A stretch of DNA of 64,000 nucleotides from Skeletonema tropicum (Eukaryota; Bacillariophyta; Thalassiosirophyceae; Thalassiosirales; Thalassiosiraceae): positions 434,001-498,000 of the forward strand of contig CM074141.1 in NCBI GenBank assembly GCA_037178625.1, written 5' to 3'. The notes under the pieces were generated by a model that had not been told where the DNA came from, searched no databases, and was given only the letters and a program-made list of their open reading frames with translations. The position numbers and the translations under genes are program-made. Below, one piece after another: positions 30,349 to 64,000 of the stretch; the first letter of the stretch is position 1; each line of letters begins with the position of its first letter.

Positions 30349-31254
30349 CTAAGCACGATCTGCAACATGAAATGTGTATGGTGGCAAGTTGAGAAAAGGA
30401 AGGACACTATTCATCACAATATCTTGAGGCACAAAACGCTGGAGGGTAGGCACAACATCCTCCTCCAAAACGCGTTGATGCTCTGCTGTGTAGTGCACAA
30501 TATTGCCAAGAACTAATCTTATCCAACCTCGTATCGCAACGGCCTTCTCTCCCTCATTATTAATCTCCCCGTAGTGGCCAGCATCTGCAGTGGGAAGAAT
30601 CTGATTGATTGAATAGATTTTATTGTTCATATCACTTCTCCATTCTTCCAAATGTAATGCGGTGATAGTTTCGTGAAGCTCCTTCTCAACTAGATCAACG
30701 TGCTTCAACTTTCTACACCCAATGAATGTATTGCCATGGGTAATAATCCCATCTTTCAATGGGATGGTGATCCGTTCTAGAGAGAGGCAGTAATGGAATG
30801 CTCTCTCATCAAATCTTTCCAGCTTGCTACCAAATTTCGCGTTCGTCAGGGCGGGGCAATCACCGAATGCGTACCTCTTAACGATCCTAACGGATGACAG
30901 ATTAATGCTCCTCAAAGATTTGCAGCAATTGAATGCACATTGTTTAATTATTTCTAGCTTGTCACATTCCACGTCCGTCAGGGCGTCACAGTCACCGAAA
31001 GCAAAACCCTCAACAATTTTGACGCCCGGCATGATTACTCGTCTCAATCGAGGGCAGCACCAGAATGCGTTTTCTTCAATCTTTTCGACATCCTCATGGC
31101 AGATAACTTCAACGATGTTGTGGTGATGTAAGAATGTCCACGCACGAACGACTTTGGCGACCACAAAGATATGAGTTGCATCATCAGGAATAACTTCGCC
31201 CTCCTCACCGGTGTAAGTGTATCTATTGATAATAATATTGCCCTCGGCCTCCAT
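30349..31254 (-). CDS. type A LRR_5 (BspA-like) protein A2
   Basis: 301 codons, starting at the ATG that gives MEAEGNIIINRYTY; an in-frame upstream TTG is ignored because the paralogues A3 and A5 start at the equivalent ATG. Residues 1-35 are a conserved head (YTGEEGEVIPDDATHIFV). About six LRR_5 repeats follow to roughly residue 190, each with an AF-x-x-C core (ENAFWCC, GFAFGDC, QCAFNCC, RYAFGDC, ERAFHYC, NTFIGC). Residues 195-290 form a helical tail with LHLEEWRSDM, HYTAEH and a closing VLPFLNLPPYTF. No signal peptide or membrane segment is present, so it is probably intracellular. LRR_5 repeats are binding scaffolds; the ligand is unknown. Its divergent B partner is the relic at 35229, now 4 kb away because of an insertion in the shared promoter. 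Confidence 0.85.
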   Translation of the reverse strand: MEAEGNIIINRYTYTGEEGEVIPDDATHIFVVAKVVRAWTFLHHHNIVEVICHEDVEKIEENAFWCCPRLRRVIMPGVKIVEGFAFGDCDALTDVECDKLEIIKQCAFNCCKSLRSINLSSVRIVKRYAFGDCPALTNAKFGSKLERFDERAFHYCLSLERITIPLKDGIITHGNTFIGCRKLKHVDLVEKELHETITALHLEEWRSDMNNKIYSINQILPTADAGHYGEINNEGEKAVAIRGWIRLVLGNIVHYTAEHQRVLEEDVVPTLQRFVPQDIVMNSVLPFLNLPPYTFHVADRA

Positions 31255-31845
31255 GATGGAACTACGGCGGATAATATTTGAGACGATGGAGAGTTCAAGC
31301 AAACGGCCCGTTGATTTGAAGATAGTAGCGGTTATTAAGGAGGTCTTTTCGATTGTTATCGTGCCCGTCGATCTACGGTTCTTATCTCTGTCTCATAAGG
31401 CGGGGACAATTTAATCTTATATAAGTATTAATACCCCCCCCACCTAGACACCGGTTTCAAGGCTAGTGGTTCCCCCGAGGGGATTTTTACCCCCGCTGTG
31501 AGGACCACTAACAAACTACAGGGGTCAAAAAAGGTGTCTAACACCTCTTCGCTACGTACACAAAATTGTAGGAATTGGTACACACCCAAAAAATGCTTCC
31601 CGCATTTTGTGGAGGAGAGAGAATAAGCCTGCAAAGTTTTTCTACGTACACGTAGTACGATTCCTACAGTAGCTACTCCTACCAAATTCGGGCGGGAAGA
31701 TGACTTTTTCACTGTCACATCAGAAAATGCTAGCTGTTCGCTCAATATCGTTAGACACTTTTTCTGTAATTCACGTTTTTTGACCCGGACACTATAAAGG
31801 TCTGCACTAGTGTGAGTTGCGCGGCGTCTTTTCGAACACCGTCCG

Positions 31846-32357
31846 CTACTGGCGGGAACTAAATCGTACCGGAAATAAATCGTACCACGAAGAAATCTCC
31901 ACACAAATCACTAACAAAACACAAAAAAGACGCATTCTACACCCTAATATCATGGTTCTGAGCCTCCATGTCAACGCCTATCCCAAATAATCGACCATAA
32001 TATGATAGTATAGACAAGTAGCTTTCGATAGAACCACTGGTCAACGTTGTATGTAGTATACTCGCATAGCAGCAGCAGCGCAGGCATGCAGATATGCCGT
32101 AGACATGCGTCATTCTAGATCGAAATAGCAGTTATTGGTCCCAAATTTGTCGATAGGTGCTCCATCTCGACGAACTATAGTCTCTTCTGCATCATATAAT
32201 GTATATATACTGTTTGGGATTCTATGTTTAGGCTGCTATATGTATTTTCGTCGAGTATCATGGCCAAATATATGACTCTTTTCATGTTGTTAGTGTTTTG
32301 TGCGTAAAATTTGATAAATCGTACCGCGGCGAGGTACGATTTAGTTCCCGCCAGTAG
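31846..32357. mobile_element. 512-bp element with 25-bp perfect TIRs
   Basis: 31846-31870 is the exact reverse complement of 32333-32357 (core GCGGGAACTAAATCGTACC). Further ATAAATCGTACC copies lie just inside both ends. No transposase. The superfamily is unknown. Confidence 0.65.
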
Positions 32358-33581
32358 TCCGTGCGGGACACAAGGCATTTTTTTCGTGGCGGTTCCTTCG
32401 TCGTTTTGGGGGGCGAAAAAGGAGGGAGAAAAGAAGGAGGAAAGTTCTGCTCTTGACGTAGCATTGATACGACGAGCAACAGCTGTAGTAGGAGACAGAT
32501 ATAATTATTGTGCATCATCTTATACAAGTCTCGCCAGCCTCCTACGAGATACGAGATTTGCTTTCGAGCCAAGAGCTCAGAATGCATGGGCATGGCATCG
32601 TGAATGCTTCATGTATCATGTATTAAGCAGGCAGGGGCTAAAAAATATTGACACAAATTGGTACGGCTGTGAACTCTCTTGATGTGTGTCAACTTTGGTT
32701 TTATCAGGTTACAATCTTCTTCAATCTATTGCTGTGCACTAGGTGCAGTAGAACTGGTTTGTAGTTGGATTTCAAATCTTTCGTCATATTGCCGCATCCA
32801 ACCATCAGTGTTCTTGGTCTCATATTATGTATCCGTTCACATCACACTCTGCAACTTTCTATGCCCACAAAATGACTAAGACTGGCGTGAATAGAGCAAG
32901 TTTGTATGTCTTCGTCGATGCTGTCCATACGAGGTGCTGATTATTGCGTGTTGATACATTTTCGAACTGAGGTATTCCCACTTTCATACACCATCCACGA
33001 AGCACTTGCATAAGCAAATGATGCAGCCATCATCGCCTGCAAAAACTTAGCCTGCCTCTGAAGAATCCGATGCGCACGAAACATTCGATCAGTATTTTCG
33101 TGTGAGGAGAGACGATAGCTTCGCCCGACGTATTTTTGATGTCGACGACGCCAAAAGCATACCCACGTGTCGATTGTTTTTGTGTGCTCGACGGCATACA
33201 ACATTATCGACTTGTACGCAACATCACAAATGTCCTTTGTTTTGATCTATATTGGATTGGTTATATTTGGATAGTCCAGAGGATAGAGGTAGCCGGCCGG
33301 TGACACGGAGACTTGCGGCACTAAACACAGAGATGTTTGCGATGATGAATGAGAGTTCTGCCTTCACAGGTCAATCCATAGGAAATTTGGATGCGGACTG
33401 TGATCGATTATCATTAGTGGTGATTGGTAGTTGTGTGTTGCTCGTATCTCTACAGCTACGGATATCATCATCTTGATGATGGGAGTGATGGTTTTGTGCA
33501 AAGACGGTCACGAATCTCAAACTGTGCGTGATTTCGCAGTCTACGTGTGTTCTACAGTGGTTTGAACTTCCGTGACTTGGA

Positions 33582-33640
33582 GTGACCGTATTTGCACCCC
33601 CTCCGTGACCGTATTTGCACCACCACCGTGACCGTATTTG
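33582..33640. repeat. 23-bp tandem repeat, 2.6 copies
   Basis: GTGACCGTATTTGCACC plus a C-rich spacer at 33582, 33605 and 33628 (the last partial). Confidence 0.75.
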
Positions 33641-33662
33641 TAAGAACCGGCACAAAAACGTT

Positions 33663-34117
33663 GCCGGACACAAACAAGTGATTTTATGTCTTCACGAGCG
33701 CTTGCCGCGAGTGAAGACATAAGGTCACGAGTTTTGTGTCGTGGCGGGCGACGGTGTGAGAAACGATCAGCGCAATGAACACGAGTGCCCGACCTGACTG
33801 TGTCGTGACTCGGGCCGAGCGCAAAAAAGATCGGGCAAACACACACTGCTCAAAAGGCGGCCACAAACGATGAACCAAGACTTAACTCAGCGCACTTGCG
33901 CCTGACGAACTAAGTGATTTACATACCCCAACACTCGTGCATCGCTGCGCTCTCCTCTCGTGCTGTGATAATCATTCCTGCGTGAGGACAATAGTGTTAT
34001 GGTATCAATAGGCGCAATTTTTTACTTGCTGCCAGTGTCTCCTACCGTGAGTGTCGTGAAGAGTGAGTGGACGCTTTTTGAGCAGTGTGTGTCCGATTTT
34101 TCTTTTTTGTGTCCGGC
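33663..34117. mobile_element. nested inverted-repeat (foldback-like) segment
   Basis: The outer arms GCCGGACACAAA (33663-33674) and TTTGTGTCCGGC (34106-34117) pair exactly. A second inverted pair, ACACACTGCTCAAAA near 33841 and TTTTGAGCAGTGTGT near 34076, lies inside, as does a 12-bp hairpin at 33684-33722 (TTATGTCTTCAC, 15-base loop). No coding sequence. Confidence 0.5.
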
Positions 34118-34259
34118 CCCGTTGCGACACAACACCAACACAATGGTACAATGGTAGTACTACCCTCTAACAACACTTTTAGTTGAGTTATTTTTTACAT
34201 CGCTTAGTTCTAAACTCATCGGCTGCCGCCCCCCAGCATCGCCATGGTGCTCATTGACG

Positions 34260-34505: not shown

Positions 34506-34531
34506 TTTCCTAAGTGATATGATATGATACG

Positions 34532-34846: not shown

Positions 34847-34961
34847 ATAGATCTTTTTAATGAATGAAGGCAGGTTGCAGGTTGTAGACCTCACGGTCTC
34901 CCGCGAGCACTTTCTATGCAATGAGTATCTATTGATGATTTCGTTTGGCTTGAGAACCGGC

Positions 34962-35228: not shown

Positions 35229-35276
35229 ATGATGGCGGAGGTACGAGGCGAAGATGATCTCTTGTTTCTCTCCTAA
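35229..35276 (+). pseudogene. truncated type B gene (first 10 codons only)
   Basis: Reads MMAEVRGEDD, the type B start, then leaves the family sequence and stops at TAA 35274-35276 inside the 3' end of A3. The rest was deleted by recombination joining this point to the end of an A gene. It is the former divergent partner of A2. Confidence 0.8.
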
Positions 35277-36172
35277 GCACGATCTGCCACTTCAAATGTG
35301 TATGGTGGCAAGTTGAGGAAAGGAAGGACACTATTAATCACAATATCTTGAGGTAAAAAACTTTGGAGTGTAGGAGCAACGTCCTCATCCAATAGGCGGC
35401 GATGCTCTTCTTTGTAGTGCACAATATTGCCAAGAAGTGATCTAATCCAAGCTCGTATCGCAACGGCCATTTCTCCCGCATCATTCCTTCTGTCTCCAGC
35501 AGGTGCAGTGGGAAGAATCTGACTGATTGAACTAATTTCTTTGTACAAATCACTTCTCCATTCTTCCAAATGTAATGCAGCGATAGTTTCATGTAGTCCC
35601 ACCTCAACCAGATCTACGTGCTTCAACTTTTTACACGCTTTGAATGTATGGGTAATAATCCCATCTTTCAATGGGATGGTGATCCGTTCAAGAGAGGTGC
35701 AGGCATAGAATGCCCCTCTTTCAATTCTTTCCAGCTTGCTACCAAATTTCGCGTTCGTCAGGGTTTTGCAATCACTAAATGCACCCTTCTCAGCGATCCT
35801 AGCGGACGGCATGTTAATGCTCCTCAAAGATGTGCAGCTACTAAATGCGTACACTTTAATTATTTCTAGCTTGTCACATTCCACGTCCGTCAGGGCTCCA
35901 CAATTGTCGAATGCAAAACCCCCAACAATTTTGACGCCCGGCATGATTACTCGTTTCAAGCGAGGGCAGTGATAGAATGCGTATTGTTCAATCTTTTCGA
36001 CATCCTCATGACAGATAACTTCAACGATGTTGGGATGCTCATAGAATGTCCACGCACGAACGACTTTGGCGACCACAAAGATATGAGTTGCATCATCAGG
36101 AATAACTTCGCCCTCCTTACCCCTGTATGTGTATCTATTGATATAAGTAGTAATATTGCCCTCGGCATCCAT
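35273..36172 (-). CDS. type A LRR_5 protein A3
   Basis: 299 codons from MDAEGNITTYINRY. The repeat cores read QYAFYHC, GFAFDNC, VYAFSSC, KGAFSDC, RGAFYAC and a sixth shortened by two codons (THTFKAC where A2 has THGNTFIGC). The helical tail ends VLPFLNLPPYTFEVADRA. The frame is intact. Head to head with B4 across 706 bp. The 3' end abuts the B relic, so the usual type A 3' module is missing here and the terminator context may differ from A2, A5 and A7. From about 36053 upstream the sequence is identical to A5's first third, while the rest of the gene differs at the variable codons. The function is unknown; the fold predicts a binding protein. Confidence 0.85.
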   Translation of the reverse strand: MDAEGNITTYINRYTYRGKEGEVIPDDATHIFVVAKVVRAWTFYEHPNIVEVICHEDVEKIEQYAFYHCPRLKRVIMPGVKIVGGFAFDNCGALTDVECDKLEIIKVYAFSSCTSLRSINMPSARIAEKGAFSDCKTLTNAKFGSKLERIERGAFYACTSLERITIPLKDGIITHTFKACKKLKHVDLVEVGLHETIAALHLEEWRSDLYKEISSISQILPTAPAGDRRNDAGEMAVAIRAWIRSLLGNIVHYKEEHRRLLDEDVAPTLQSFLPQDIVINSVLPFLNLPPYTFEVADRA

Positions 36173-36878: not shown

Positions 36879-37811
36879 ATGATGGCGATTTTTATTTACA
36901 TGGGTGGCGATCAAGAAGTGCCCGATGGTGTTAGAAGACGTGCCAGAATTCATAGATCCGTCAAAATTATTCCTGAAAAAGCATTCTACCATCGTACAAA
37001 TCTTATTTCTGTGGAGTTCCATGATGAGATCGAGATTATTGAGGAGTCGGCGTTCCAATGGTGCGGTTCATTGAGGGGACCCATTAAATTGCTGGGCGTC
37101 AAAATCATCAAAAAGGCAGCATTCTCTGGATGTATCGCCTTGACAGATGTAGAATTTGGTGACATGCTGGAAACGATTGAAGAGAGGGCATTCTACTACT
37201 GCAACTCATTGAGAACTATCACGATGAAATCCGTGAGGAATATTGGAGAGAGGGCGTTTGCATTTTGCAGAGAGTTATCTGATGTGGAATGCGGTGAAGA
37301 TCTTGAAACAATACAAGTAGGCGCATTCGATGATTGCCTCAATTTGAAACGAATCATCTTGCCATTGAAAGACAATATGATCGAAGATGATGTATTCCTT
37401 CATTGCTCAAAGCTCACAACAGTGGAATTAGTTGGGGGGATCCACCACACCGTTAGATCTTTGCATATGGAGAGCTGGGGAAATAAAATGATGAATGAAA
37501 TCAACCGCATCAAACAAGTACTACCCATCACTCATCATTCTCAAAAGACTATAGAAATACAGCATTGGATGGAATCAGTCATCCGCCGACTCAATCACTA
37601 CAGGACTGAACACAACACCTTGTTGAAGGAGGCTACAACGTTGCTGGAACTCGCTCTGTGGAAGGCCAATCTTGACAATAGCAAGGGAGGTGAGAGGGAG
37701 GGAGTAAGAACAACGAGGGGAAGTCGAAAGAGAGCAAGGAAAGAGATCTGTGTTACATCTGGCGCAAGCATTGTGATCAAGAATGTGTTGCCATTTCTCC
37801 TATTGAAATGA
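36879..37811 (+). CDS. type B LRR_5 (BspA-like) protein B4
   Basis: 310 codons from ATG ATG (MMAIFIYMGGDQEVPDG). It lacks the acidic insert (EVRGEDD or EARDDDD) found after MMA in B8-B13. Repeat cores from about residue 35 to 190: EKAFYHR, ESAFQWC, KAAFSGC, ERAFYYC, ERAFAFC, VGAFDDC, DDVFLHC. Then follows a helical region (LHMESWGNKMMNEINRI, RLNHYRTEH, TTLLELALWKANL), a basic RGSRKRARKE stretch that could be a nuclear signal, and a closing NVLPFLLLK. That last motif is shared with type A, so the tail marks both as one family. No signal peptide. The frame is intact. It is nucleotide-identical to B6 by eye. Confidence 0.85.
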   Translation: MMAIFIYMGGDQEVPDGVRRRARIHRSVKIIPEKAFYHRTNLISVEFHDEIEIIEESAFQWCGSLRGPIKLLGVKIIKKAAFSGCIALTDVEFGDMLETIEERAFYYCNSLRTITMKSVRNIGERAFAFCRELSDVECGEDLETIQVGAFDDCLNLKRIILPLKDNMIEDDVFLHCSKLTTVELVGGIHHTVRSLHMESWGNKMMNEINRIKQVLPITHHSQKTIEIQHWMESVIRRLNHYRTEHNTLLKEATTLLELALWKANLDNSKGGEREGVRTTRGSRKRARKEICVTSGASIVIKNVLPFLLLK

Positions 37812-38735: not shown

Positions 38736-39641
38736 CTAAGCACGATCTGCCACATCGAATGTGTATGGTGGCAAGTTGAGAAAAGGAAGGACATTATTCG
38801 TCACAATATCTTGAGGCACATAACGCTGGAGGGTAGGCACAACATTCTCCTCCAAAACGCGTTGATGCTCTGCTTTGTAGTGCACAATTTTGCCAAGAAC
38901 TAATCTTATCCAACCTCGTATCGCAACGGCCTTCTCTCCATCATACTCCTCGTAGTTGCCAGCATCTGCAGTGGGAAGAATCTGATTGATTGAATAGATT
39001 TTATTGTTCATATCACTTCTCCATTCTTCCAAATGTAATGCGGTGATTGTTTCGTGAAGCTCCTCCTCAACTAGATCAACGTGCTTCAACTTTCTACACC
39101 CAATGAATGTATTGCCATGGGTAATAATCCCATCTTTCAATGGGATGGTGATCCGTTCTAGAGAGAGGCAGTAATGGAATGCTCTCTCATCAAATCTTTC
39201 CAGCTTGCTACCAAATTTCGCGTTCGTCAGGGCGATGCAATTACTAAATGCACTCATCTCAGCGATCCTAACGGATGGCAGATTGATGCTCCTCAAAGAT
39301 GTGCAGCTATTAAATGCACATTGTTTAACTATTTCTAGCTTGTCACATTCCACGTCCGTCAGGGCTCCACAATTGTCGAATGCAAAACCCCCAACAATTT
39401 TGACGCCCGGCATGATTACTCGTTTCAAGCGAGGGCAGTGATAGAATGCACTGTATTCAATCTTTTCCACATCCTCATGACAGATAACTTCAACGATGTT
39501 GTGGTGATGTAAGAATGTCCGCGCACGAACGACTTTGGCGACCACAAAGATATGAGTTGCATCATCAGGAATAACTTCGCCCTCCTTACCCCTGTATGTG
39601 TATCTATTGATATAAGTAGTAATATTGCCCTCGGCATCCAT
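38736..39641 (-). CDS. type A LRR_5 protein A5
   Basis: 301 codons, MDAEGNITTYINRY start as in A3. Cores: YSAFYHC, GFAFDNC, QCAFNSC, MSAFSNC, ERAFHYC, NTFIGC. The second half (from ERAFHYC onward) matches A2 and A7 almost exactly, while the first third matches A3, so A5 reads as a mosaic. The tail ends VLPFLNLPPYTFDVADRA. The frame is intact. Divergent from B6 across 706 bp. A head position is also variable here (VRARTFLHHHNIVEV, against VRAWTFYEHPNIVEV in A3). Confidence 0.85.
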   Translation of the reverse strand: MDAEGNITTYINRYTYRGKEGEVIPDDATHIFVVAKVVRARTFLHHHNIVEVICHEDVEKIEYSAFYHCPRLKRVIMPGVKIVGGFAFDNCGALTDVECDKLEIVKQCAFNSCTSLRSINLPSVRIAEMSAFSNCIALTNAKFGSKLERFDERAFHYCLSLERITIPLKDGIITHGNTFIGCRKLKHVDLVEEELHETITALHLEEWRSDMNNKIYSINQILPTADAGNYEEYDGEKAVAIRGWIRLVLGKIVHYKAEHQRVLEENVVPTLQRYVPQDIVTNNVLPFLNLPPYTFDVADRA

Positions 39642-40347: not shown

Positions 40348-41280
40348 ATGATGGCGATTTTTATTTACATGGGTGGCGATCAAGAAGTGCCCGATGGTGT
40401 TAGAAGACGTGCCAGAATTCATAGATCCGTCAAAATTATTCCTGAAAAAGCATTCTACCATCGTACAAATCTTATTTCTGTGGAGTTCCATGATGAGATC
40501 GAGATTATTGAGGAGTCGGCGTTCCAATGGTGCGGTTCATTGAGGGGACCCATTAAATTGCTGGGCGTCAAAATCATCAAAAAGGCAGCATTCTCTGGAT
40601 GTATCGCCTTGACAGATGTAGAATTTGGTGACATGCTGGAAACGATTGAAGAGAGGGCATTCTACTACTGCAACTCATTGAGAACTATCACGATGAAATC
40701 CGTGAGGAATATTGGAGAGAGGGCGTTTGCATTTTGCAGAGAGTTATCTGATGTGGAATGCGGTGAAGATCTTGAAACAATACAAGTAGGCGCATTCGAT
40801 GATTGCCTCAATTTGAAACGAATCATCTTGCCATTGAAAGACAATATGATCGAAGATGATGTATTCCTTCATTGCTCAAAGCTCACAACAGTGGAATTAG
40901 TTGGGGGGATCCACCACACCGTTAGATCTTTGCATATGGAGAGCTGGGGAAATAAAATGATGAATGAAATCAACCGCATCAAACAAGTACTACCCATCAC
41001 TCATCATTCTCAAAAGACTATAGAAATACAGCATTGGATGGAATCAGTCATCCGCCGACTCAATCACTACAGGACTGAACACAACACCTTGTTGAAGGAG
41101 GCTACAACGTTGCTGGAACTCGCTCTGTGGAAGGCCAATCTTGACAATAGCAAGGGAGGTGAGAGGGAGGGAGTAAGAACAACGAGGGGAAGTCGAAAGA
41201 GAGCAAGGAAAGAGATCTGTGTTACATCTGGCGCAAGCATTGTGATCAAGAATGTGTTGCCATTTCTCCTATTGAAATGA
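40348..41280 (+). CDS. type B LRR_5 protein B6 (identical copy of B4)
   Basis: 310 codons, same protein as B4. It arose with the tandem duplication and has no private change that I can see. Its A partner, A5, differs from A3 at many variable positions, so identical B proteins are now paired with different A proteins. The 3' flank at 41281-42210 repeats that of B4. Confidence 0.85.
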   Translation: MMAIFIYMGGDQEVPDGVRRRARIHRSVKIIPEKAFYHRTNLISVEFHDEIEIIEESAFQWCGSLRGPIKLLGVKIIKKAAFSGCIALTDVEFGDMLETIEERAFYYCNSLRTITMKSVRNIGERAFAFCRELSDVECGEDLETIQVGAFDDCLNLKRIILPLKDNMIEDDVFLHCSKLTTVELVGGIHHTVRSLHMESWGNKMMNEINRIKQVLPITHHSQKTIEIQHWMESVIRRLNHYRTEHNTLLKEATTLLELALWKANLDNSKGGEREGVRTTRGSRKRARKEICVTSGASIVIKNVLPFLLLK

Positions 41281-42210: not shown

Positions 42211-43116
42211 CTAAGCACGATCTGCGACAGCGAATGTATATGGTGGCAAGTTGAGAAAAGGAAGGACATTATTCGTCACAATATCTTGAGGCACAAAACG
42301 CTGGAGGGTAGGCACAACATTCTCCTCCAAAACGCGTTGATGCTCTGCTTTGTAGTGCACAATTTTGCCAAGAACTAATCCAATCCAATCTCGTATCGCA
42401 ACGGCCTTCTCTCCCTCATTATTAATCTCCCCGTAGTGGCCAGCATCTGCAGTGGGAAGAATCTGATTGATTGAATAGATTTTATTGTTCATATCACTTC
42501 TCCATTCTTCCAAATGTAATGCGGTGATAGTTTCGTGAAGCTCCTTCTCAACTAGATCAACGTGCTTCAACTTTCTACACCCAATGAATGTATTGCCATG
42601 GGTAATAATCCCATCTTTCAATGGGATGGTGATCCGTTCTAGAGAGAGACAGTAATGGAATGCTCTCTCATCAAATCTTTCCAGCTTGCTACCAAATTTC
42701 GCGTTCGTCAGGGCGGGGCAATCACCGAATGCGTACCTCTTAACGATCCTAACGGATGACAGATTAATGCTCCTCAAAGATTTGCAGCAATTGAATGCCC
42801 CTTGTTTAATTATTTCCAGCTTGTCACACTCCACATCCGTCAGGGCGTCACAGTCAGTGAATGCCCCCTCTCCAACAATTTTGACGCCCGGCATGATCAC
42901 TCGTCCCAATCGAGGGCAGCAATAGAATGCACTGTATTCAATCTTTTCAACATCCTCATGGCAGATGACTTCGACGATGTTGTGGTGATGTAAGAATGCC
43001 CGCGCACGAACGACTTTGGCGACCACAAAGATATGAGTTGCATCATCAGGAATAACTTCGCCCTCCTCACCGGTGTAAGTGTATCTATTGATAATAATAT
43101 TGCCCTCGGCCTCCAT
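42211..43116 (-). CDS. type A LRR_5 protein A7, mosaic
   Basis: 301 codons from MEAEGNIIINRYTY; an in-frame upstream TTG is ignored as for A2. Cores: YSAFYCC, EGAFTDC, QGAFNCC, RYAFGDC, ERAFHYC, NTFIGC. The 170 nt at 42740-42909, covering the second and third repeats, are identical to 11648-11817 of A1, while the rest follows A2. This is the clearest conversion tract in the window. The frame is intact and the tail ends VLPFLNLPPYTFAVADRA. Divergent from B8, with an enlarged promoter. Confidence 0.85.
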   Translation of the reverse strand: MEAEGNIIINRYTYTGEEGEVIPDDATHIFVVAKVVRARAFLHHHNIVEVICHEDVEKIEYSAFYCCPRLGRVIMPGVKIVGEGAFTDCDALTDVECDKLEIIKQGAFNCCKSLRSINLSSVRIVKRYAFGDCPALTNAKFGSKLERFDERAFHYCLSLERITIPLKDGIITHGNTFIGCRKLKHVDLVEKELHETITALHLEEWRSDMNNKIYSINQILPTADAGHYGEINNEGEKAVAIRDWIGLVLGKIVHYKAEHQRVLEENVVPTLQRFVPQDIVTNNVLPFLNLPPYTFAVADRA

Positions 43117-44672: not shown

Positions 44673-45629
44673 ATGATGGCGGAGGTACGAGGCGAAGATG
44701 GTGAGATTTTTATTTACATGGGCGGCGATCAAGAAGTGCCCAGAGGTGTCAGGCGTGTCCGAATTCATAGATCCGTCAAAATTATTCCCCGGTATGCATT
44801 CCGAAATCGTATAAATCTAATTTCTGTGGAGTTTCACGATGAGATAGAAATCATTGAGGAGTACGCGTTCGCTGGATGCTCCTCGTTGAGGGGACCCATT
44901 AAATTGCTGGGCGTCAAGATCATCAAAATGGGGGCATTCCAAGTTTGTAGCACACTAACTGGTGTAGAATTTGGCGACATGCTGGAAACGATTGAAATGT
45001 ATGCATTTTTCAAATGCAACTCATTGAGAAACATCACAATACCTTCTGTGAGGACCATTGAAAGCCGGGCTTTTGCATGTTGCGAAGAGTTATCTGATGT
45101 GGAATGCGGTGAAGATCTTGAAACAATACAAGAAAGCGCATTCGGTGGTTGCGAAAATTTGCAACGAATCGCATTGCCATTGAAAGACAATATGATCGAA
45201 GATGATGTATTCCGTTTCTGTCCCAACTTTGAAACAGTGGATCTAGTTAGGGGGATTCGAAGCACTATTGCCTCTCTGCATATGGAGAGCTGGAGAAGTG
45301 AAATGATGGATGAAATCAACCGCATCAATCAAGCACTAACTGACACTGATGAGCGGCAAAAGACAGGAGCAATTCAGCATTGGATAAGGAATGTTATCCG
45401 CCGACTCAATCACTACAAGACTGAACACCACAAGATATTGAAGGAGGCTACAACGTTGCTTGAGCTTGCTCTGTGGAAGGCCAATCTTGATGACAATGAG
45501 GGAGGACTTGAGAGGGAGGGAGTAAGAACAACGAGGGGAAGTCGAAAGAGAGCAAGGAAAGAGATCTGTGTTACGTCTGGTGCAAGTATTGTGATCAAGA
45601 ATGTATTACCCTTTCTCCTATTGGGGTGA
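44673..45629 (+). CDS. type B LRR_5 protein B8
   Basis: 318 codons, MMAEVRGEDGEIFIYMGGDQ. Cores: RYAFRNR, EYAFAGC, MGAFQVC, MYAFFKC, SRAFACC, ESAFGGC, DDVFRFC. The stretch from the second to the fifth repeat is almost identical to B9 at 50 kb, while the sixth and seventh differ. The helical tail (RLNHYKTEHHKILKEAT), the RGSRKRARKE basic segment and the NVLPFLLLG end are intact. Partner of A7. Its 3' flank (45630-46155) keeps a shortened B-type block and then meets the 3' end of the MYB gene. Confidence 0.85.
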   Translation: MMAEVRGEDGEIFIYMGGDQEVPRGVRRVRIHRSVKIIPRYAFRNRINLISVEFHDEIEIIEEYAFAGCSSLRGPIKLLGVKIIKMGAFQVCSTLTGVEFGDMLETIEMYAFFKCNSLRNITIPSVRTIESRAFACCEELSDVECGEDLETIQESAFGGCENLQRIALPLKDNMIEDDVFRFCPNFETVDLVRGIRSTIASLHMESWRSEMMDEINRINQALTDTDERQKTGAIQHWIRNVIRRLNHYKTEHHKILKEATTLLELALWKANLDDNEGGLEREGVRTTRGSRKRARKEICVTSGASIVIKNVLPFLLLG

Positions 45630-50300: not shown

Positions 50301-51254
50301 ATGATGGCGGAGGTACGAGGCGAAGATGATGAGATTTTTATTTACATGGGCGGCGATCAAGAAGTGCCCAGAGGTGTCAGGCGTGTCCGAATTCACAGAT
50401 CCGTCAAAATTATTCCCCGGTATGCATTCCAATATCGTGGAAATCTAATTTCTGTGGAGTTTCACGATGAGATCGAAATCATTGAGGAGTACGCGTTCGC
50501 TGGATGCTCCTCGTTGAGGGGACCCATTAAATTGCTGGGCGTCAAGATCATCAAAATGGGGGCATTCCAAGTTTGTAGCACACTAACTGGTGTAGAATTT
50601 GGCGACATGCTGGAAACGATTGAAATGTATGCATTTTTCAAATGCAACTCATTGAGAAACATCACAATACCTTCTGTGAGGACCATTGAAAGCCGGGCTT
50701 TTGCATTTTGCTATGAGTTATCTGATGTGGAATGCGGTGATCGACTTGAAACAATACAAGAATGCGCATTCGTAAAATGCCACAAATTGAAACGAATCGT
50801 CTTGCCATTAAAGGACAATATGATCGAAGATAGTGTATTCCTTCATTGCTCAAAGCTCACAACAGTGGAATTAGTTGGGGGGATCCACAACACTGTTGGA
50901 TCTTTGCATATGGAAAGCTGGGGAAATGAAATGATGACTGAAATCAACCGCATCAATCATGTACTACCCGACACTCATCATTCTCAAAAGAATACAGAAT
51001 TTCAACAATGGATATCATAAGTCATCCGCCGACTCAATTACTACAAGACTGAACACCACAAGATATTGAAGGAGGCTACAACTTTGCTGGAGCTTGCTCT
51101 TTGGAAGGCCAATCTTGATGACAACGAGGGAGGTGAGAGGGAGGGAGTAAGAACAACGAGGGGAAGTCGGAAAAGAGCCAGGAAAGAGATCTGTGTCACA
51201 TCTGGTGCAAACATTGTAATCAAGAATGTGTTACCCTTCCTCCTATTGGAATGA
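50301..51254 (+). pseudogene. type B LRR_5 gene B9 with one nonsense codon
   Basis: MMAEVRGEDDEIFIYMGGDQ start; cores RYAFQYR, EYAFAGC, MGAFQVC, MYAFFKC, SRAFAFC, ECAFVKC, DSVFLHC. After 239 codons the frame meets TAA at 51018-51020, where the intact paralogue B11 has TCA (WISSVIRRL). The same frame is then open to the normal end NVLPFLLLE at 51254. A single C-to-A change therefore removes the second half of the helical tail and the basic segment. All repeats remain, so a shortened protein could still be made. No A partner lies nearby; it shares its upstream region with the MYB gene. Confidence 0.8.
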
Positions 51255-52530: not shown

Positions 52531-53508
52531 ATGATGGCGGAGGCACGAGACGATGATGAGATTTTTGTCTACATGGGCGGCGATCAAAGAGTGCCCGATG
52601 GTGTTAGACGTGCCAGAATTCATAGATCCGTCAAAATCATTCCCCGGTATGCATTCCAATATCGTGGAAATCTAGTATCTGTGGAGTTTCATGATAAAAT
52701 CGAAATCATTGAGGAGAATGCGTTTGACGGCTGCACTTCATTGTTGGGACCCATCAAATTACTCGGCGTCAAAATCATCGAAGAGGGGGCATTCGACAAC
52801 TGTCGCGCCCTAACAGGTGTAGAATTTGGTAACAAGCTGGAAACGATTGAAGGTCACGCATTCTACAACAGCTACTCATTGAGGAGCATAACGGTGCCGT
52901 CTGTGAGGACCATCGGAGAGAGGGCTTTTACATGGTGCTTTGTGTTATCTGATGTGGAATGCGGTGAAGATCTTGAAACAATAGAAGGATTCGCATTCCG
53001 AAACTGCCCCAAATTGAAACGACTCGTCTTGCCATTAAAAGACAATATGATTGAAGATGATGTATTCCGTAACTGCCCAAAGCTCGCAACAGTGGAATTA
53101 GTTGGGGGGATTCACAGCACTGTTAGATCTCTGCATATGGAGAGCTGGAGAAGTGAAATGGAGGGAGAAATCAACCGCATCAATCAAGTACTACCCAACA
53201 CCACCTATCCTTTTGAAAAGACTGCAGAAATACAGAATTGGATGAGATCAGTCATGCAACAACTCAATCACTACAAGACTGAACACCACAAGATATTGAA
53301 GGAGGCTACAACGCTGCTGGAACTCGCTCTTTGGAAGGCTAATCTTGATGATAACAAGGGAAGACTTGCGAGGGAGGGAGACAGAACAAGGAGGGAAAGT
53401 CAAAAGTGAGCAAGGAAGGAGATCTTTGCACGGACAGAAATCTTTGTTACGTCTGGTGCAAGCATGGTGATCAAGAATGTGTTGCCCTTTCTAGTTTTGA
53501 AATCATAG
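52531..53508 (+). pseudogene. type B LRR_5 gene B10 with a late TGA
   Basis: Starts at ATG 52531 (MMAEARDDDEIFVYMGGDQ); an upstream GTG in frame is ignored. Cores: RYAFQYR, ENAFDGC, EGAFDNC, GHAFYNS, ERAFTWC, GFAFRNC, DDVFRNC. After 292 codons TGA at 53407-53409 replaces AGA of the RKRARKE basic segment. The frame continues through ARKEIF, a short in-frame duplication that repeats ATCTTT, and VTSGAS to NVLPFLVLKS with stop at 53506-53508. The loss is confined to the last 33 codons, so a nearly complete protein lacking the basic segment and end motif could still be made. Confidence 0.8.
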
Positions 53509-54787: not shown

Positions 54788-54790
54788 AAT

Positions 54791-55051: not shown

Positions 55052-56008
55052 ATGATGGCGGAGGCACGAGACGATGACGATGAGATTTTTGTCTACATGG
55101 GCGGCGATCAAAGAGTGCCCAGGGGTGTTCGACGTGCCAGAATTCATAGATCCGTCAAAATTATTCCACGTAAGGCATTCTATCGACGTAGAAATCTAAT
55201 TCATGTTGAGTTTCACGATGAGATCGAAATCATTGAGGAGTATGCGTTTTACGGATGCCGCTCATTGAGGGGATGCATTAAATTGCTGGGCGTCAAGATC
55301 ATCAAACAGGGGGCATTTAGTAGTTGTAGCGCCGTAACAGGTGTAGAATTTTTTGGTGACAAACTCGAAACGATTGAAATTTTGGCATTCTACAACAGCT
55401 ACTCATTGAGGAGCATAACGGTGCCTTCGGTAAGGACGATTTCAAGAAGGGCGTTTGGTTATTGCTATGAGTTATCTGATGTGGAATGCGGTGATCGACT
55501 TGAAACAATACAAGAAGGCGCATTCGTAAACTGCCCCAATTTGAAACGAATCGTCTTGCCATTGAAAGACAATGTGATCGAAGATGATGTATTCCTTCAT
55601 TGCTCAAAGCTCACAACAGTGGAATTAGTTGGGGGGGTCCACAACACTATTGCCTCTCTGCATTTGGAGAGCTGGGGGAATGAAATGATGGATGAAATCA
55701 ACCGCCTCAATCAAGTACGACCCAACACCCCACCGTGGCAAAAGACTATAGAAATACAACAGTGGATATCATCAGTCATCCGCCGACTCAATTACTACAA
55801 GACTGAACACCACAAGATATTGAAGGAGGCCACATCGCTGTTAGAGCTTGCTCTGTGGACGGCCAATCTTGAGTACAACGAGGGAGGTGAGAGGGAGGGA
55901 GTAAGAACAACGAGGGGAAGTCGGAAAAGAGCCAGGAAAGAGATCTGCGTTACATCTGGTGCAAGCATTGTGATCAAGAATGTGTTACCCTTCCTCCTAT
56001 TGGAATGA
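55052..56008 (+). CDS. type B LRR_5 protein B11
   Basis: 318 codons from ATG ATG at 55052 (MMAEARDDDDEIFVYMGGDQ). Cores: RKAFYRR, EYAFYGC, QGAFSSC, ILAFYNS, RRAFGYC, EGAFVNC, DDVFLHC. The third repeat has one extra residue (GVEFFGDKLETIE). This is the only one of the four 50-57.5 kb B genes with an open frame to the normal end (RKRARKEIC, NVLPFLLLE). Relative to B9 it is offset by 4751 bp, and it keeps the B9-type upstream and 3' flanks. No A partner. Confidence 0.85.
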   Translation: MMAEARDDDDEIFVYMGGDQRVPRGVRRARIHRSVKIIPRKAFYRRRNLIHVEFHDEIEIIEEYAFYGCRSLRGCIKLLGVKIIKQGAFSSCSAVTGVEFFGDKLETIEILAFYNSYSLRSITVPSVRTISRRAFGYCYELSDVECGDRLETIQEGAFVNCPNLKRIVLPLKDNVIEDDVFLHCSKLTTVELVGGVHNTIASLHLESWGNEMMDEINRLNQVRPNTPPWQKTIEIQQWISSVIRRLNYYKTEHHKILKEATSLLELALWTANLEYNEGGEREGVRTTRGSRKRARKEICVTSGASIVIKNVLPFLLLE

Positions 56009-56592: not shown

Positions 56593-57549
56593 ATGATGGC
56601 GGAGGCACGAGACGATGACGATGAGATTTTTGTCTACATGGGCGGCGATCAAGAAGTGCCCAGACGTGTTAGACGTGCCCGAATTCATAGATCCGTCAAA
56701 ATCATTCCATCAAGGGCATTCTACCGACGTTATGAACTAATATCTGTGGAGTTTCACGGTGAGATCGAAATCATTGAGGAGTATGCGTTCTATGGCTGCG
56801 AATCATTGAGGGAATGCATTAAATTGCTGGGCGTCAAGATTGTCAAAGAGGCAGCATTCCATAGTTGTAGCGCCCTAACAGGTGTAGAATTTGGTAACAA
56901 GCTGGAAACGATTGAAATGCACGCATTCTACAACAGCTACTCATTGAGGAGCATAACGGTGCCTTCTGTGAGAACCATTCGATTCCAGGCGTTTGGTTAT
57001 TGCTATGAGTTATCTGATGTGGAATGCGGTGATCGACTTGAAACAATTCAAAGAGGCGCATTCGAAAGCTGCCTCAATTTGAATCGAATAGTCTTGCCAT
57101 TGAAAGACAATATGATCGAAGATGATGCATTCTTTCATTGTCCAAAGTTAGCAAAAGTGGAATTAGTTGGGGGGGTTCACAACACTATTGCCTCTTTGCA
57201 TATGGAGAGCTGGGGAATTGAAATCATGGATGAAATTAACCGCATCAATCAAGTACGACCCAACACCCCACCGTGGCAAAAGACTATAGAAATACAACAG
57301 TGGATATAATCAGTCATCCGCCGACTCCATCACTACAAGACTGAACACCACAAGATATTGAAGGAGGCAACATCGCTGTTAGAGCTTGCTCTGTGGAAGG
57401 CCAATCTTGAGTACAACGAGGGAGGTGAGAGGGAGGGAGTAAGAACAACGAGGGGAAGTCGAAAGAGAGCAAGGAAAGAGATCTGTGTTACGTCTGGTGC
57501 AAGCATTGTGATCAAGAATGTGTTGACCTTTCTAGTTTTGAAATCATAG
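56593..57549 (+). pseudogene. type B LRR_5 gene B12 with one nonsense codon
   Basis: MMAEARDDDDEIFVYMGGDQ start. Cores: SRAFYRR, EYAFYGC, EAAFHSC, MHAFYNS, FQAFGYC, RGAFESC, DDAFFHC. After 238 codons it meets TAA at 57307-57309, where B11 has TCA. This is the codon immediately before the one mutated in B9 (here ATA TAA TCA GTC, in B9 ATA TCA TAA GTC). The same frame is open afterwards to NVLTFLVLKS at 57549. The two stops are therefore separate events at nearly the same place. Confidence 0.8.
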
Positions 57550-59820: not shown

Positions 59821-60774
59821 TCATTTCAATAGGAGAAACGGCAACACATTCTTGATCACAATACTTGCACCAGACGTGACACAGATCTCTTTCCTTGCTC
59901 TCTTTCGACTTTCCCTCGTTGTTCTTACTCCGTCCCTTTCACCTCCCTTGCTATCGTCAAGATTGGCCTTCCAAAGAGCGAGTTCAAGCAGCGTTGTAGC
60001 CTCCTTCAATATCGTCTTGTGTTCAGCCTTGTAGTGATTGAGTTGTTGGATGACTGATTCCATCCAATGCTGAATTGCTCCTGTCTTTTGCTCATCATCA
60101 GTGTCGGGTAGTACTTGATTGATGCGGTTGATTTCTCCCTCCATTTCATTTCTCCAGCTCTCCATATGCAGAGAGGCAACAGTGCTGCTAACACCCCCAA
60201 CTAACTCCACTGTTGCGATTTTTGGACAGTAAACGAATACATTATTTTCAATCATATTGTCTTTCAATGGCAAGACGATTCGTTTCAAATTTGGGCAGTT
60301 TTCGAATGCACTCTGTCGTATTGTTTCAAGATCTTCACCGCATTCCACATCAGATAACTCTGAGCAAAATGTAAACGCTAGGAATTCAATAGTCCTCACA
60401 GACGGCATTGTGAGGCTCCTCAATGTTTTGCAGTTGAAGAATGCATAATCTCCAATCGTTTGTAACTTGTCACCAAATTCTACACCCGTTAGGGCGCTAC
60501 AGTTGTCGAATGCCCACTTGTTGATGATTTTGACGCCCAGCAATTTAATGCGTCCCCTCAATGAACCGCACCATTGGAACGCATACTCCTCAATGATTTC
60601 GATCTCATCGTGAAACTCCACAGATATTAGTTCATAACAATTTTTGAATGCCCTTGATGGAATAATTTTGACGGATCTATGAATTCTGATACGTCTAACA
60701 CGTCTGGGCACTTCTTGATCGCCGCCCATGTAGACAAAAATCTCATCGTCATCGTCTCGTGCCTCCGCCATCAT
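59821..60774 (-). CDS. type B LRR_5 protein B13
   Basis: 317 codons, MMAEARDDDDEIFVYMGGDQ. Cores: SRAFKNC, EYAFQWC, KWAFDNC, DYAFFNC, FLAFTFC, QSAFENC, NNVFVYC. Its first repeat has the cysteine (KNC) that most other B genes replace with Arg. The tail (QLNHYKAEHKTILKEAT), the SRKRARKE basic segment and the NVLPFLLLK end are intact. It is on the minus strand and head to head with A14, so this pair is a mirror image of the pairs at 35-45 kb: the whole unit was inverted. Confidence 0.85.
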   Translation of the reverse strand: MMAEARDDDDEIFVYMGGDQEVPRRVRRIRIHRSVKIIPSRAFKNCYELISVEFHDEIEIIEEYAFQWCGSLRGRIKLLGVKIINKWAFDNCSALTGVEFGDKLQTIGDYAFFNCKTLRSLTMPSVRTIEFLAFTFCSELSDVECGEDLETIRQSAFENCPNLKRIVLPLKDNMIENNVFVYCPKIATVELVGGVSSTVASLHMESWRNEMEGEINRINQVLPDTDDEQKTGAIQHWMESVIQQLNHYKAEHKTILKEATTLLELALWKANLDDSKGGERDGVRTTRESRKRARKEICVTSGASIVIKNVLPFLLLK

Positions 60775-61488
60775 TAATACTTGCTCGGTAGTATCATAAC
60801 AAGATAGATCGCCTTGGCGTTGACCGCGTCAAGAAGAAAAATAATTGTTGCTGGCTGTTGTGTTGTAAGTGAAAGTTGTAAGTTGTAAGGGTATTGCTAA
60901 GAAATCATTCAGCTAAAAATAAGGAGCAGAGAGAGAGCTCGCAATGATTTTAGCGCAACAACTCATCCACGAATCAAAACTACATGCCAAACAGAAGATT
61001 TTTAGGAGCTACACTAAGAGAGAGAGAGCTATGTAACTACAAAAGCATGCTTTAAAAGCGTGGCTCTCAAGCTAAACGAACATTCTTCGGTTGCCAGTTG
61101 CATGTCGCATGTTGCCATCACTATCAGACTCTTCGCAGCGTTGTAGTGGTCAATATCATCGGCGGAGGCGCCTTTCTCTGTATCCTACTTGAGTATTGTT
61201 CTGCGTCGCGTCATCGTCGGACGAGTCATTTCATCCTCGTGCCGTTAGAAACGTCGATATCATTGAATCAGTACGATATCATTGGGCAGAATTTATCAAC
61301 CAGCGTCATCTCTCGTGTCTCTATTGTAGAGTGTGTGTGAGAGAGATCTTTAATCGGCGGGACACGATAACAATCGAAAGACCTCAATCGCCCCCCTTCC
61401 GTGATACCCGTTACTATCCTCAAATCAACGGGCCGTTTGCCGATTGATTGAACTCCCCATCATCGCAAATATCCGCCGTTGTCACATC
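60775..61488. promoter_or_regulatory. divergent promoter of pair B13/A14
   Basis: 714 bp with the same block order as the other pairs, inverted: the GGCGATCTATC-type block near the B start, a CAAACAGAAGATTTT block, AAGGCGCC-type and TCGTCGGACGAGT blocks, then GATAACAATCGAAAGACCTC (61366-61385) near the A start. Confidence 0.6.
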
Positions 61489-62373
61489 ATGGAGGCCGTC
61501 GGCGATATCATTAATCGATACACTTACACCGGCGAGGAGGGTGAAATTATTCCTGATGATGCAACTCATATCTTCGTGGCTGCCAATATCATTCGTGCGC
61601 GGGCATTCGAATTCCATCGTAACATCATCGAAGTAATCTGCCATGAAGATGTGGAAAAGATTGAAATAGTCGCATTCCGTTTCTGCCCTTCCTTGAGACG
61701 AGTAATCATGCGGGGCGTCAAAATTGTTGAAGATTGTGCATTTATGCATTGTGAAGCCCTGATGGATGTGGAATGTGACAAGCTGGAAATCATTAAAGAT
61801 GGCGCATTCAATTACTGCAAATTATTGAGAAGCATCAACCTAACATCCGTCAGGATCGTTGAGCGGGACGCATTCGGTAATTGTAGAGCTCTGACGGATG
61901 CGAAATTCGGGAGCATGCTGGAAAGATTTGATGAGAGAGCATTCTTGTTCTGCACCTCTCTTGAACGAATCACCATCCCATTGAAAAATGGCTTCATTAC
62001 TGATAACACATTTCAAGGGTGTGAAAATTTGAATCATGTAGAACTGGTTGAGGGATCACTACTACATCAAATTGTAGCCGCGTTACATTTAGAGGAATGG
62101 AGAAATGATATGAATGAAGTAATTGATTCAATCAATCAGGCTCTTCCTAATGCACCTGCTGGAGAAATTGGCCAATATGTGGGAGAAAAGGTCCGGGCAA
62201 TACGAGATTGGATTGGATCGGTTCTGCGCCAACTTGGTCACTACAAAGCAGATCATCGCCGCTTATTGGATGAAGATGTTGCTCCGTTCCTCCAGTGTAT
62301 ATTGCCTCGAGATATTGTAATGAATAGTATCCTTCCTTTTCTCGAATTACCATCGAACGCATTTTTTGAATGA
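61489..62373 (+). CDS. type A LRR_5 protein A14
   Basis: 294 codons from ATG 61489 (MEAVGDIINRYTYTGEEGEIIPDD); an upstream in-frame TTG is rejected as in A2. Cores: IVAFRFC, DCAFMHC, DGAFNYC, RDAFGNC, ERAFLFC, NTFQGC. The framework is conserved while every core differs from A2, A3, A5 and A7, except ERAF in the fifth repeat. The tail reads LHLEEWRNDMNEVIDSI, LGHYKADHRRLLDED and ends ILPFLELPSNAFFE, closer to A1 than to the 30-43 kb copies. The frame is intact. Divergent partner of B13. Confidence 0.85.
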   Translation: MEAVGDIINRYTYTGEEGEIIPDDATHIFVAANIIRARAFEFHRNIIEVICHEDVEKIEIVAFRFCPSLRRVIMRGVKIVEDCAFMHCEALMDVECDKLEIIKDGAFNYCKLLRSINLTSVRIVERDAFGNCRALTDAKFGSMLERFDERAFLFCTSLERITIPLKNGFITDNTFQGCENLNHVELVEGSLLHQIVAALHLEEWRNDMNEVIDSINQALPNAPAGEIGQYVGEKVRAIRDWIGSVLRQLGHYKADHRRLLDEDVAPFLQCILPRDIVMNSILPFLELPSNAFFE

Positions 62374-62711
62374 GACAATTGTAAAGAGGACGAAGACGTT
62401 GCGAGGATGAGGAGGTTAATCGTCAGATAGTGCTGTTCAGAGATACGAGGATATTATGAATGAAGATGATAATTATGAAGAAGAGAGAGAGGGGTGGAAT
62501 GTTATCTTGGTCTTGAACAGCAATGAATTGTCTGTAGTAGTAGTAAATCTGAAGATGTGCAATCATTTACGCATTACTGAGCGTTTTAATCGAGATTAGC
62601 CTCTGCCACTTTCTCACTGATCAATACATCACAAACACCAGCCCCACGAAGAGCCAAATAGTGAGGATCCTGTATGAGAAAAAGTCCTAAACTCGAGACT
62701 ATGCATTTATT
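62374..62711. other. 3' flank of A14
   Basis: No supported gene; purine-rich at first, then unrelated to the A-type 3' module of the 30-43 kb copies. Confidence 0.4.
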
Positions 62712-62839
62712 GGAATGCCCATGCAGGAATAATTTTATTTGACGGATCTATGAATTCGGGCACGCCTGACACCGTCGGGCACTCTTTGATCGCCGCCCAT
62801 GTAGACAAAAATCTCATCATCTCGTACCTCGGCCATCAT
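62712..62839 (-). pseudogene. truncated type B gene next to A15
   Basis: From ATG ATG at 62839 it reads MMAEVRDDEIFVYMGGDQ, RVPDGVRRARIHRSVK, then TAA caused by a two-base insertion. The expected IIPAWAF follows in another frame, and after about 42 codons the homology ends. Only the head and the edge of the first repeat survive. It keeps its place as divergent partner of A15. Confidence 0.75.
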
Positions 62840-63300
62840 TAGTCCTTGCTCGGTGTTATCACATAAGATAGATCGCCTTGGGTTGACCGCGTTGTGACGT
62901 TGTTGCTGCAAGCAGAATTGTTGCGTGCTGTTGGTTGTATGTTGTATGATTGCTAAAAGAAATCATGTAGCTCGCACTCAATGATTCGCACAAACCATCC
63001 ACGAATCAAAACAACATGCCAAACAGAAGATAATATTGCATGCCAAACTGCGAAGATAGATTCTCAAGCCAAACGCCCATCACCATCATTGCCATCACAC
63101 ATCACAGCGCCAATATCATCAACGGAGGCACCACTGTCTCCCTGCATCCTCGTTGTCTATTGTTCTGCATTGCGTCATCGTCGGACGAGTATCGTAGTAT
63201 CCGCCTCGCCGCCTCGTTCCTCAGAAACGTCGATATCATTGGGCAGACTTGAAATTTATCAAAGCGTCATCTCAGCCAGGTCATCCCTCGTGTCTCTATT

Positions 63301-63334
<34 letters not shown>

Positions 63335-63444
63335 CTACGAGACGCGATCGCCGTCCGTGATACCCGCTACTATCTTCAAATCAACAGGCCGTTTGCCGTT
63401 TGATTGAACTCCTCATCGTCTCAAATATCCGCCGTAGTTCCATC
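62840..63444. promoter_or_regulatory. divergent promoter of the B-relic/A15 pair
   Basis: 605 bp with the shared blocks (AAACTGCGAAGATAGATTCT near 63045, CGTCATCGTCGGACGAGTA near 63174, CTACTATCTTCAAATC near 63368). It contains a (GA)n run. Confidence 0.55.
63302..63331. repeat. (GA)n microsatellite
   Basis: About 15 uninterrupted AG units, roughly 115-145 bp upstream of the A15 start. Confidence 0.9.
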
Positions 63445-64000
63445 ATGGAGGCTGAGGGCAACATTATTATCAATAGATACACTTACAGGGGCGAGGAGGG
63501 CGAGATTATCCCTCGTCTTGCAACTCATGTCTTTGTGGCCGCCAAAGTCGTTCGTGCGCGGACATTCCAACGGCATCACAACATCGTCGAAGTCATCTGC
63601 CTTGAGGATGTGGAAAAGATTGAAGAAAACGCATTCGCTTTCTGCCCTCGCTTGAGACGAGTGATCATGCCGGGCGTCAAAATTGTTGAGGAATATGCAT
63701 TCGGTAGGTGTGAAGCACTGACAGATGTGGAATGTGGCAAGTTGGAAATAGTTAAACGAGGGGCATTCTATAAATGCGATTCTTTGAGGAGCATCAACCT
63801 ATCATCCGCCAGGATCGTTGAGGAGGGTGCATTCAGTGATTGCATCGCCCTGACGAACGCGAAATTTGGTAGCAAGCTGGAAAGAATTGAGGATTATGCA
63901 TTCCATCACTGCCTCTCTCTTGAACGGATCACCATCCCATTGAAAGATGGGATTATTACCCATGGCAATACATTCATAGGGTGTAGAAATTTGAAGCACG
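63445..64000 (+). CDS. type A LRR_5 protein A15, cut by the right edge
   Basis: Open from ATG 63445 (MEAEGNIIINRYTYRGEEGE) to the window end, 185 codons. Cores: ENAFAFC, EYAFGRC, RGAFYKC, EGAFSDC, DYAFHHC, NTFIGC. The head has IIPRLATHVFV, like A1's IIPRLATHIFV, instead of IIPDDATHIFV, and the first segment has EVICLEDVEK where the others have EVICHEDVEK. The helical tail lies outside the window. No frame break was seen. Confidence 0.85.
   Translation, partial: MEAEGNIIINRYTYRGEEGEIIPRLATHVFVAAKVVRARTFQRHHNIVEVICLEDVEKIEENAFAFCPRLRRVIMPGVKIVEEYAFGRCEALTDVECGKLEIVKRGAFYKCDSLRSINLSSARIVEEGAFSDCIALTNAKFGSKLERIEDYAFHHCLSLERITIPLKDGIITHGNTFIGCRNLKH

Follow-up and report, generated by a model that had tools for sequence, protein, structure and literature searches.

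Rapid change at fixed repeat positions in an LRR_5 gene family of the diatom Skeletonema tropicum

A cluster of leucine-rich repeat (LRR) genes in the diatom Skeletonema tropicum raises the question of why paralogues with a nearly constant framework differ from copy to copy at a few residues of each repeat. The genes lie between 30.3 and 64 kb of a 64,000-nucleotide stretch of contig CM074141.1 (C15:434001-498000, referred to here as the window) and belong to the Pfam family LRR_5. An initial annotation, made from the sequence of the window, had proposed that the variable residues around the AF..C core of each repeat form a binding surface under diversifying selection in an intracellular recognition repertoire. 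Here we show that these flank residues as a class evolve faster than the neutral expectation, the rest of the LRR and the regions outside it being on the whole under purifying selection.

Variation around a fixed repeat core

Translation of the open reading frames (ORFs) in the window gave six type A and eight type B LRR_5 copies on both strands, with unrelated genes interspersed among them. Intact copies of both types are single ORFs of about 300-320 aa. The six type A copies of the initial annotation were all recovered, one of them running off the window end, and its count of seven type B copies became eight because two of them (36879 and 40348, named by their first position) are identical in DNA. 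The motifs that it had quoted were likewise found in the translated ORFs, both the variable forms (EYAFAGC in 44673, ENAFDGC in 52531, ESAFQWC in 36879 and EYAFYGC in 55052, as well as MGAFQVC, EGAFDNC, QGAFSSC, KAAFSGC, EAAFHSC and KWAFDNC) and the near-constant segments LTDVECDKLEII, MPGVKIV and KLLGVKII. Each of the four family proteins scanned matched PF13306 (LRR_5) at 99.6-151.6 bits against a curated cut-off of 27.7, and no other Pfam family exceeded its cut-off in these four.

Family members were collected from the whole genome (78,392,479 bases in 125 contigs, numbered C). At E<=1e-10 there were 133 matches to type A (query A3) and 127 to type B (query the 44673 protein), in lists that overlap and include broken copies. 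Scoring 150 of 603 candidates gave at least 205 LRR_5 matches, some genes holding more than one, and many of the family matches lie on C15, C22, C23, C21, C5 and C4. The copies on three short contigs score near-identically to copies on chromosomes (C87/C4, C47/C8 and C106/C12), and these pairs may be allelic haplotigs usable for allele comparison. For the analysis of variation, 68 loci and the window yielded 108 distinct ORF pieces, 60 of which had at least 280 aa and a score of at least 340 (32 A, 28 B). Removal of six truncated duplicates left 29 A and 25 B sequences, which are mostly the best-scoring part of the genome matches and not a random sample; one of the A rows is a broken copy at 11.1 kb of the window.

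The flank class was defined as offsets -2, -1, +2, +3 and +5 from the A of AF..C, that is the two residues before AF, the two after it and one after the Cys, or ~35 residues per protein (five per repeat, about seven repeats). Mean entropy at these offsets was 2.3-3.0 bits in the 29 A and 25 B sequences, and the A, F and C of the core and the Leu at +7 were nearly fixed (0.0-0.7 bits). When the five flank residues of a repeat were read as a unit, 183 of 198 units were distinct in A and 150 of 153 in B, three near-identical B rows having been dropped. Shuffling of cassettes between repeat positions was considered and rejected, as neither type had a 5-tuple that reappeared at another repeat position. 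Frequent residues at flank sites are Tyr, Gly, Arg, Asn and Asp, a composition that was given no weight because Tyr is also usual in BspA repeats. Three copies on C4 (169978 and 510987, which are identical ORFs, and 643825) have fully conserved flank residues although the framework of 643825 diverges from that of the other two, the opposite of the type A cluster on C15.

Tests for selection at the flank codons

Site-wise selection was assessed with our own grid codon model. A posterior above 0.9 for beta>alpha was obtained at 24 of 35 flank sites in A and 12 of 35 in B, compared with 2 of 110 and 5 of 111 other LRR sites. Pooled flank omega (the ratio of nonsynonymous to synonymous rates) was 2.11 in A and 1.76 in B, against 0.3-0.6 elsewhere. 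It was 2.39 (A) and 1.79 (B) on trees built without the flank codons and 2.59 and 2.46 in a simplified refit. When multi-nucleotide changes were also allowed, flank omega was 2.59 in A (twice the log-likelihood difference, 2dlnL, 39.1) and 1.84 in B (2dlnL 22.7), and the flank synonymous rate relative to the rest fell from 1.18 to 0.81 in A and from 1.58 to 1.09 in B. A third LRR_5 group of 10 sequences, eight from C21 and two near-identical ones from C8, gave a flank omega of 5.34 (2dlnL 22.7) over 30 flank codons, a value obtained without a conversion control. Taken singly, three offsets in A (+2, +3 and +5) and two in B (+2 and +5) were significantly above 1; the two positions before AF were not, individually. 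Of the "one or two" variable residues that the initial annotation had placed after the Cys, +5 is variable; +6 had an omega of 0.50 in A, where it is conserved, and of 1.34 in B, not a significant excess over 1.

Several results weigh against positive selection at the flanks. Sites with a posterior above 0.9 were also found outside the LRR (11 of 151 in A, 9 of 170 in B), and the flank synonymous rate was raised, 1.2-1.6, unless multi-nucleotide changes were allowed. Simulated neutral flanks with gene conversion gave a mean omega of 1.35-1.52 with a maximum of 2.78, and omega was significantly above 1 in 16 of 32 simulations, compared with 0 of 8 false positives without conversion; wherever conversion is at work, as it is in A, maximum-likelihood (ML) estimates of omega come out too high. 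Counting by the Nei-Gojobori method (NG86) in 14 A and 12 B non-overlapping nearest pairs gave a flank pN/pS of 1.14 in A (bootstrap 1.03-1.28) and 0.98 in B (0.84-1.21), so that this measure, taken alone, gives no omega above 1 in B. We think that these estimates are biased. Averaging over paths introduces extra synonymous steps wherever a codon carries two or three changes, and NG86 was for this reason not relied on as the principal test; the ratio of flank pN to framework pS was 1.82 in A and 1.48 in B. Finally, three close B pairs had 0, 0 and 1 flank replacements of 35, one pair (L060/L063) having none at a fourfold divergence of 0.097, which indicates that flank residues can persist over long periods in some copies and that change is uneven in time.

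The NG86 ratios near 1 and the absence of driven change in the close B pairs are what relaxed constraint would predict, with the x positions of the BspA repeat as free surface sites that drift neutrally, and LRR_5 repeats in general leave the x positions variable. The ML omega above 1 in A, B and the third group argues against neutral drift. Because the conversion simulations had given false positives, ML omega alone was not trusted, and a tree-free statistic was therefore used: the first and second position divergence of flank codons over the fourfold divergence of the framework. In bins of framework divergence from 0.1-0.2 to 0.4-0.5 this ratio was 3.20, 2.06, 1.66 and 1.39 in A and 3.06, 2.29, 1.75 and 1.50 in B. 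The neutral maxima in the same bins were 2.54, 1.97, 1.57 and 1.29 (100, 99, 100 and 87 simulations, built on the A layout only and applied to both types), so no neutral simulation reached the value of A or of B in any of the four bins. Taken over all pairs together, the ratio (1.77 in A, 1.90 in B) did not separate from the neutral case, 48 simulations of which reached up to 2.01; the binned comparison is thus the informative one. B flank residues were already ~78% different where framework fourfold sites differed by 0.1-0.2. With these results relaxed constraint appears an improbable explanation. The diversifying selection proposed in the initial annotation is backed by the codon models in three groups and by the tree-free test in A and B, and the NG86 ratios stand against it.

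Crossing-over, possible conversion and the layout of the cluster

New variants arise in the cluster by duplication and by exchange. A 3.46-kb unit with one A and one B gene is duplicated in tandem, its two B genes being identical in DNA. The A gene of one unit, A2, is a recent crossover chimera whose parents switch inside the LRR. Beginning at about 39526, a little inside its start, and across the 900 upstream bases compared, it has the sequence of A1 without a difference. Its 3' half from about 39225 on, and the DNA downstream, match A3 at 92-100%, and between these two parts (about 39525-39226) A1 and A3 sequence alternate in patches. Unequal crossing-over with short conversion patches would leave such a pattern. 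In-frame stops in several A and B copies point to birth and death of genes in the family. The broken A copy at 11.1 kb has an exact 171-nt block in common with A3 at an overall identity of 77%.

The patchy switching of parents in A2 would also fit a process that works on the flank codons without positive selection, either targeted mutation or gene conversion in very short tracts. Recent duplicates show whole-codon changes within otherwise identical DNA, the pairwise homoplasy index (PHI) was significant in A (28 rows; none of 200 shuffles gave so low a value), and the sharing of flank 5-tuples at a given repeat position exceeds chance, with 27 units in A against 2.6 expected and 6 in B against 0.2. 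Fourfold divergence of flank codons relative to the framework was 0.98 in A and 1.32 in B; both values exceed those of the selection simulations (0.78), and B is near the hypermutation ones (1.17-1.22), a further point against selection. Against such a mutational process, the 5-tuples are almost all unique and stay at their repeat position, and PHI gave no signal in B (proportion 0.4, 21 rows). Threefold hypermutation simulated without selection gave a flank synonymous rate of 1.5-2.5 and an omega of 1.1-1.3, unlike the data, in which the ML flank synonymous rate was 0.80-1.09 of the framework with multi-nucleotide changes allowed. Selection simulated at 2.5 gave a synonymous rate of 0.69-0.84 and an omega of 2.6-2.75, like the data. 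Selection therefore fits better than hypermutation on the codon model and the fourfold measure disagrees, chiefly in B; we consider it unlikely, less firmly so for B, that targeted mutation or conversion on its own accounts for the flanks.

Table 1. Type A and type B LRR_5 copies in the window
Feature	Positions	Strand	Basis or remarks
Broken type A copy	about 11140-11850	-	Genome search; outside the range of the initial annotation
Type A gene A0	30349..31254	-	Single ORF; start set at conserved MEAEGN; aligned with other A copies
Type A gene A1	35273..36172	-	ORF; Pfam LRR_5 99.6 bits
Type B gene, first of identical pair	36879..37811	+	ORF and DNA comparison
Type A gene A2, chimera of A1 and A3	38736..39641	-	DNA comparison with A1 and A3
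Type B gene, DNA identical to 36879-37811	40348..41280	+	3.46-kb tandem duplication
Type A gene A3	42211..43116	-	ORF; alignment; query of genome-wide A search
Type B gene	44673..45629	+	LRR_5 119.6 bits; subject of structure model; query of genome-wide B search
Type B copy, early stop ahead of C-terminal constant part	50301..51020	+	Frame continues to about 51254
Type B copy, C-terminal end lost	52531..53409	+	ORF and alignment
Type B gene, intact ORF	55052..56008	+	ORF and alignment
Type B copy, early stop near same place as 50301-51020	56593..57309	+	ORF and genome search
Type B gene, intact ORF	59821..60774	-	LRR_5 151.6 bits
Type A gene	61489..62373	+	LRR_5 117.6 bits
Type A copy cut by window end	63445..64000	+	One in-frame TGA beyond

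The two short B copies with early stops (Table 1) end after QQWIS and QQWI, and so lack the conserved C-terminal part; the common stop site may stem from shared inheritance, from conversion or from a truncation favoured by selection. Other genes of the window include an ORF with three WRKY19 zinc-finger stretches (PF24906) at 28310-29305 and three Myb DNA-binding stretches at 47647-48081, inside the LRR cluster; the latter may belong to a larger Myb gene that lies between 46156 and 48918. An ORF at 9369-10436 gave a marginal match to Fea1, a low iron-inducible periplasmic protein (28.8 bits, slightly over the cut-off of 25).

Structure, relatives and a candidate recognition role

The placement of the flank residues was examined on an AlphaFold model of the type B protein 44673 (predicted local distance difference test, pLDDT, 81.4; 57-row alignment). 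Each ten-residue block from 11 to 190 averaged a pLDDT above 90, the model has a BspA-type solenoid fold, and the closest solved fold among Foldseek's best 1000 was TpLRR. Strands are mostly at offsets +9 to +12, taken as the concave sheet, with short strands at -5 and -4, and the model places the varied offsets on the loop that returns to the concave sheet from the short strand. At concave offsets +8, +9 and +11 the beta/alpha ratios were 0.66, 0.27 and 0.31 in A (0 of 21 sites above 0.9) and 0.58, 0.92 and 0.30 in B (3 of 21), so that in this model most variation is off the concave strand and the concave offsets are mostly constrained; two of the seven B sites at +9 were above 0.9, which weighs against the reading favoured below. 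As the repeats are taken to stack in register, the varied residues would line up as a single stripe along the solenoid's loop side. The proteins are predicted to be LRR-only, consisting of roughly seven repeats and of a helical C-terminal domain that ends in a conserved NVLPFLxL-like tail. The highest 15-residue hydropathy mean in the first 60 residues was 0.20 for the B and 1.33 for the A protein analysed, and the one feature that points to an intracellular location is the absence of a strongly hydrophobic N-terminus.

Lamprey variable lymphocyte receptors (VLRs) also combine an LRR scaffold with hypervariable residues at fixed offsets, and plant nucleotide-binding LRR receptors (NLRs) are likewise clustered germline LRR genes with tandem duplication, chimeras and broken copies. 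In both VLRs and NLRs the variation maps to the concave strand. The likeness to these systems drawn in the initial annotation is therefore only partly right, the diatom variation being mostly on the loop that leads back to that strand; unlike VLRs, the diatom family consists of many germline copies. Neither LRRNT/LRRCT caps nor NB-ARC, NACHT, TIR or ROC-COR domains were found by Pfam in the four family proteins scanned.

With BspA-type LRR families (PF13306; TpLRR, 6mlx; the Trichomonas and Entamoeba families) the diatom genes have in common the repeat, the fold and the large copy number. They differ in having no clear secretion-like N-terminus (by hydropathy only), in a conserved C-terminal helical domain and in selection resolved to fixed offsets in the repeat; for Entamoeba moshkovskii strains, excerpts of PMC6414313 report diversifying pN/pS in BspA genes. 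The brown-algal ROCO LRR candidate immune receptors are, like the diatom family, a stramenopile LRR repertoire with positively selected sites, and according to excerpts of PMC11378527 they diversify by exon shuffling and carry their selected sites on the concave face, whereas the intact diatom genes are single ORFs that vary mostly off the concave strand. Expansion or fast evolution of diatom LRR genes is also described in excerpts for Seminavis robusta tandem families (PMC7335047), Nitzschia putrida (PMC9054022) and Pseudo-nitzschia (PMC5485032), the last with two LRR receptor-like kinases with Ka:Ks>1. The N. putrida proteins are secreted and those of Pseudo-nitzschia receptor-like kinases, in which they appear to differ from the Skeletonema family, and these excerpted accounts give no site-wise mapping. 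Each of three elements, namely BspA families, repertoires of diversifying LRRs and LRR expansion in diatoms, is thus already known by itself.

Among the best 120 homologues in each of two protein searches, all those with an organism in the visible name were from Skeletonema (S. marinoi, S. menzelii and S. dohrnii), which bears out the attribution to a diatom in the initial annotation. Transcriptome-labelled (MMETSP) homologues were present, and relatives are therefore transcribed. One scan of viral contigs with a type B protein found no viral relatives.

On balance we favour the reading that this LRR-only BspA-type family, with its diversified flanks, is a germline recognition repertoire that would most likely bind variable molecules from parasites or viruses. 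Copies multiply by tandem duplication, and at least one was remade by crossing-over inside the LRR; on this reading each gene would encode one specificity, and the loop-side stripe would contact the ligand. The constant C-terminal domain may give a shared output through oligomerisation and perhaps nuclear action, the latter suggested by basic tracts such as RKRARKE. The pairing of an LRR with a constant helical domain would also suit substrate adaptors with a diversified choice of targets, such as those of ubiquitin ligases; no F-box (E<=1), BTB or similar Pfam domain was found in the four family proteins scanned, and we give the adaptor alternative little credence.

The main alternative to parasite or virus ligands is mate or self recognition in sexual reproduction, a variant that is compatible with the evolutionary part of the favoured reading. 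Under sex-inducing conditions, according to excerpts of PMC6678668, one S. marinoi LRR protein showed log fold changes of 10.5 at one time point and 7.5 at another, and sex-related genes evolve fast in other diatoms (excerpts of PMC5485032 and PMC7335047). The excerpts do not show that the S. marinoi protein belongs to the A/B family, and the size of the family seems beyond what mate recognition would need. A mating role appears rather unlikely but has a probability that is not negligible; we infer a recognition role from the sequences, and defence and mating cannot be separated here.

A more specific picture can be put forward as a tentative and somewhat doubtful proposal. Skeletonema would have a germline, non-secreted, LRR-only innate immune repertoire of well over a hundred loci, which would bind variable ligands on the loop side of a BspA solenoid and not mainly on its concave face, renew its specificities by intragenic crossing-over and selection, and signal through one shared C-terminal domain. 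Our searches of open-licence papers turned up no account of a diatom family of this build, in which LRR-only proteins that lack a clear signal sequence are diversified mostly on the loop side and share a constant C-terminal domain.

Diatoms account for a large share of primary production in the ocean, and the way in which they distinguish parasites, viruses or partners from self is still largely an open question. The family offers named genes, ~35 positions per protein and a constant domain with which this can be tested, and it presents an LRR that appears to be diversified chiefly on a surface other than the customary concave face.

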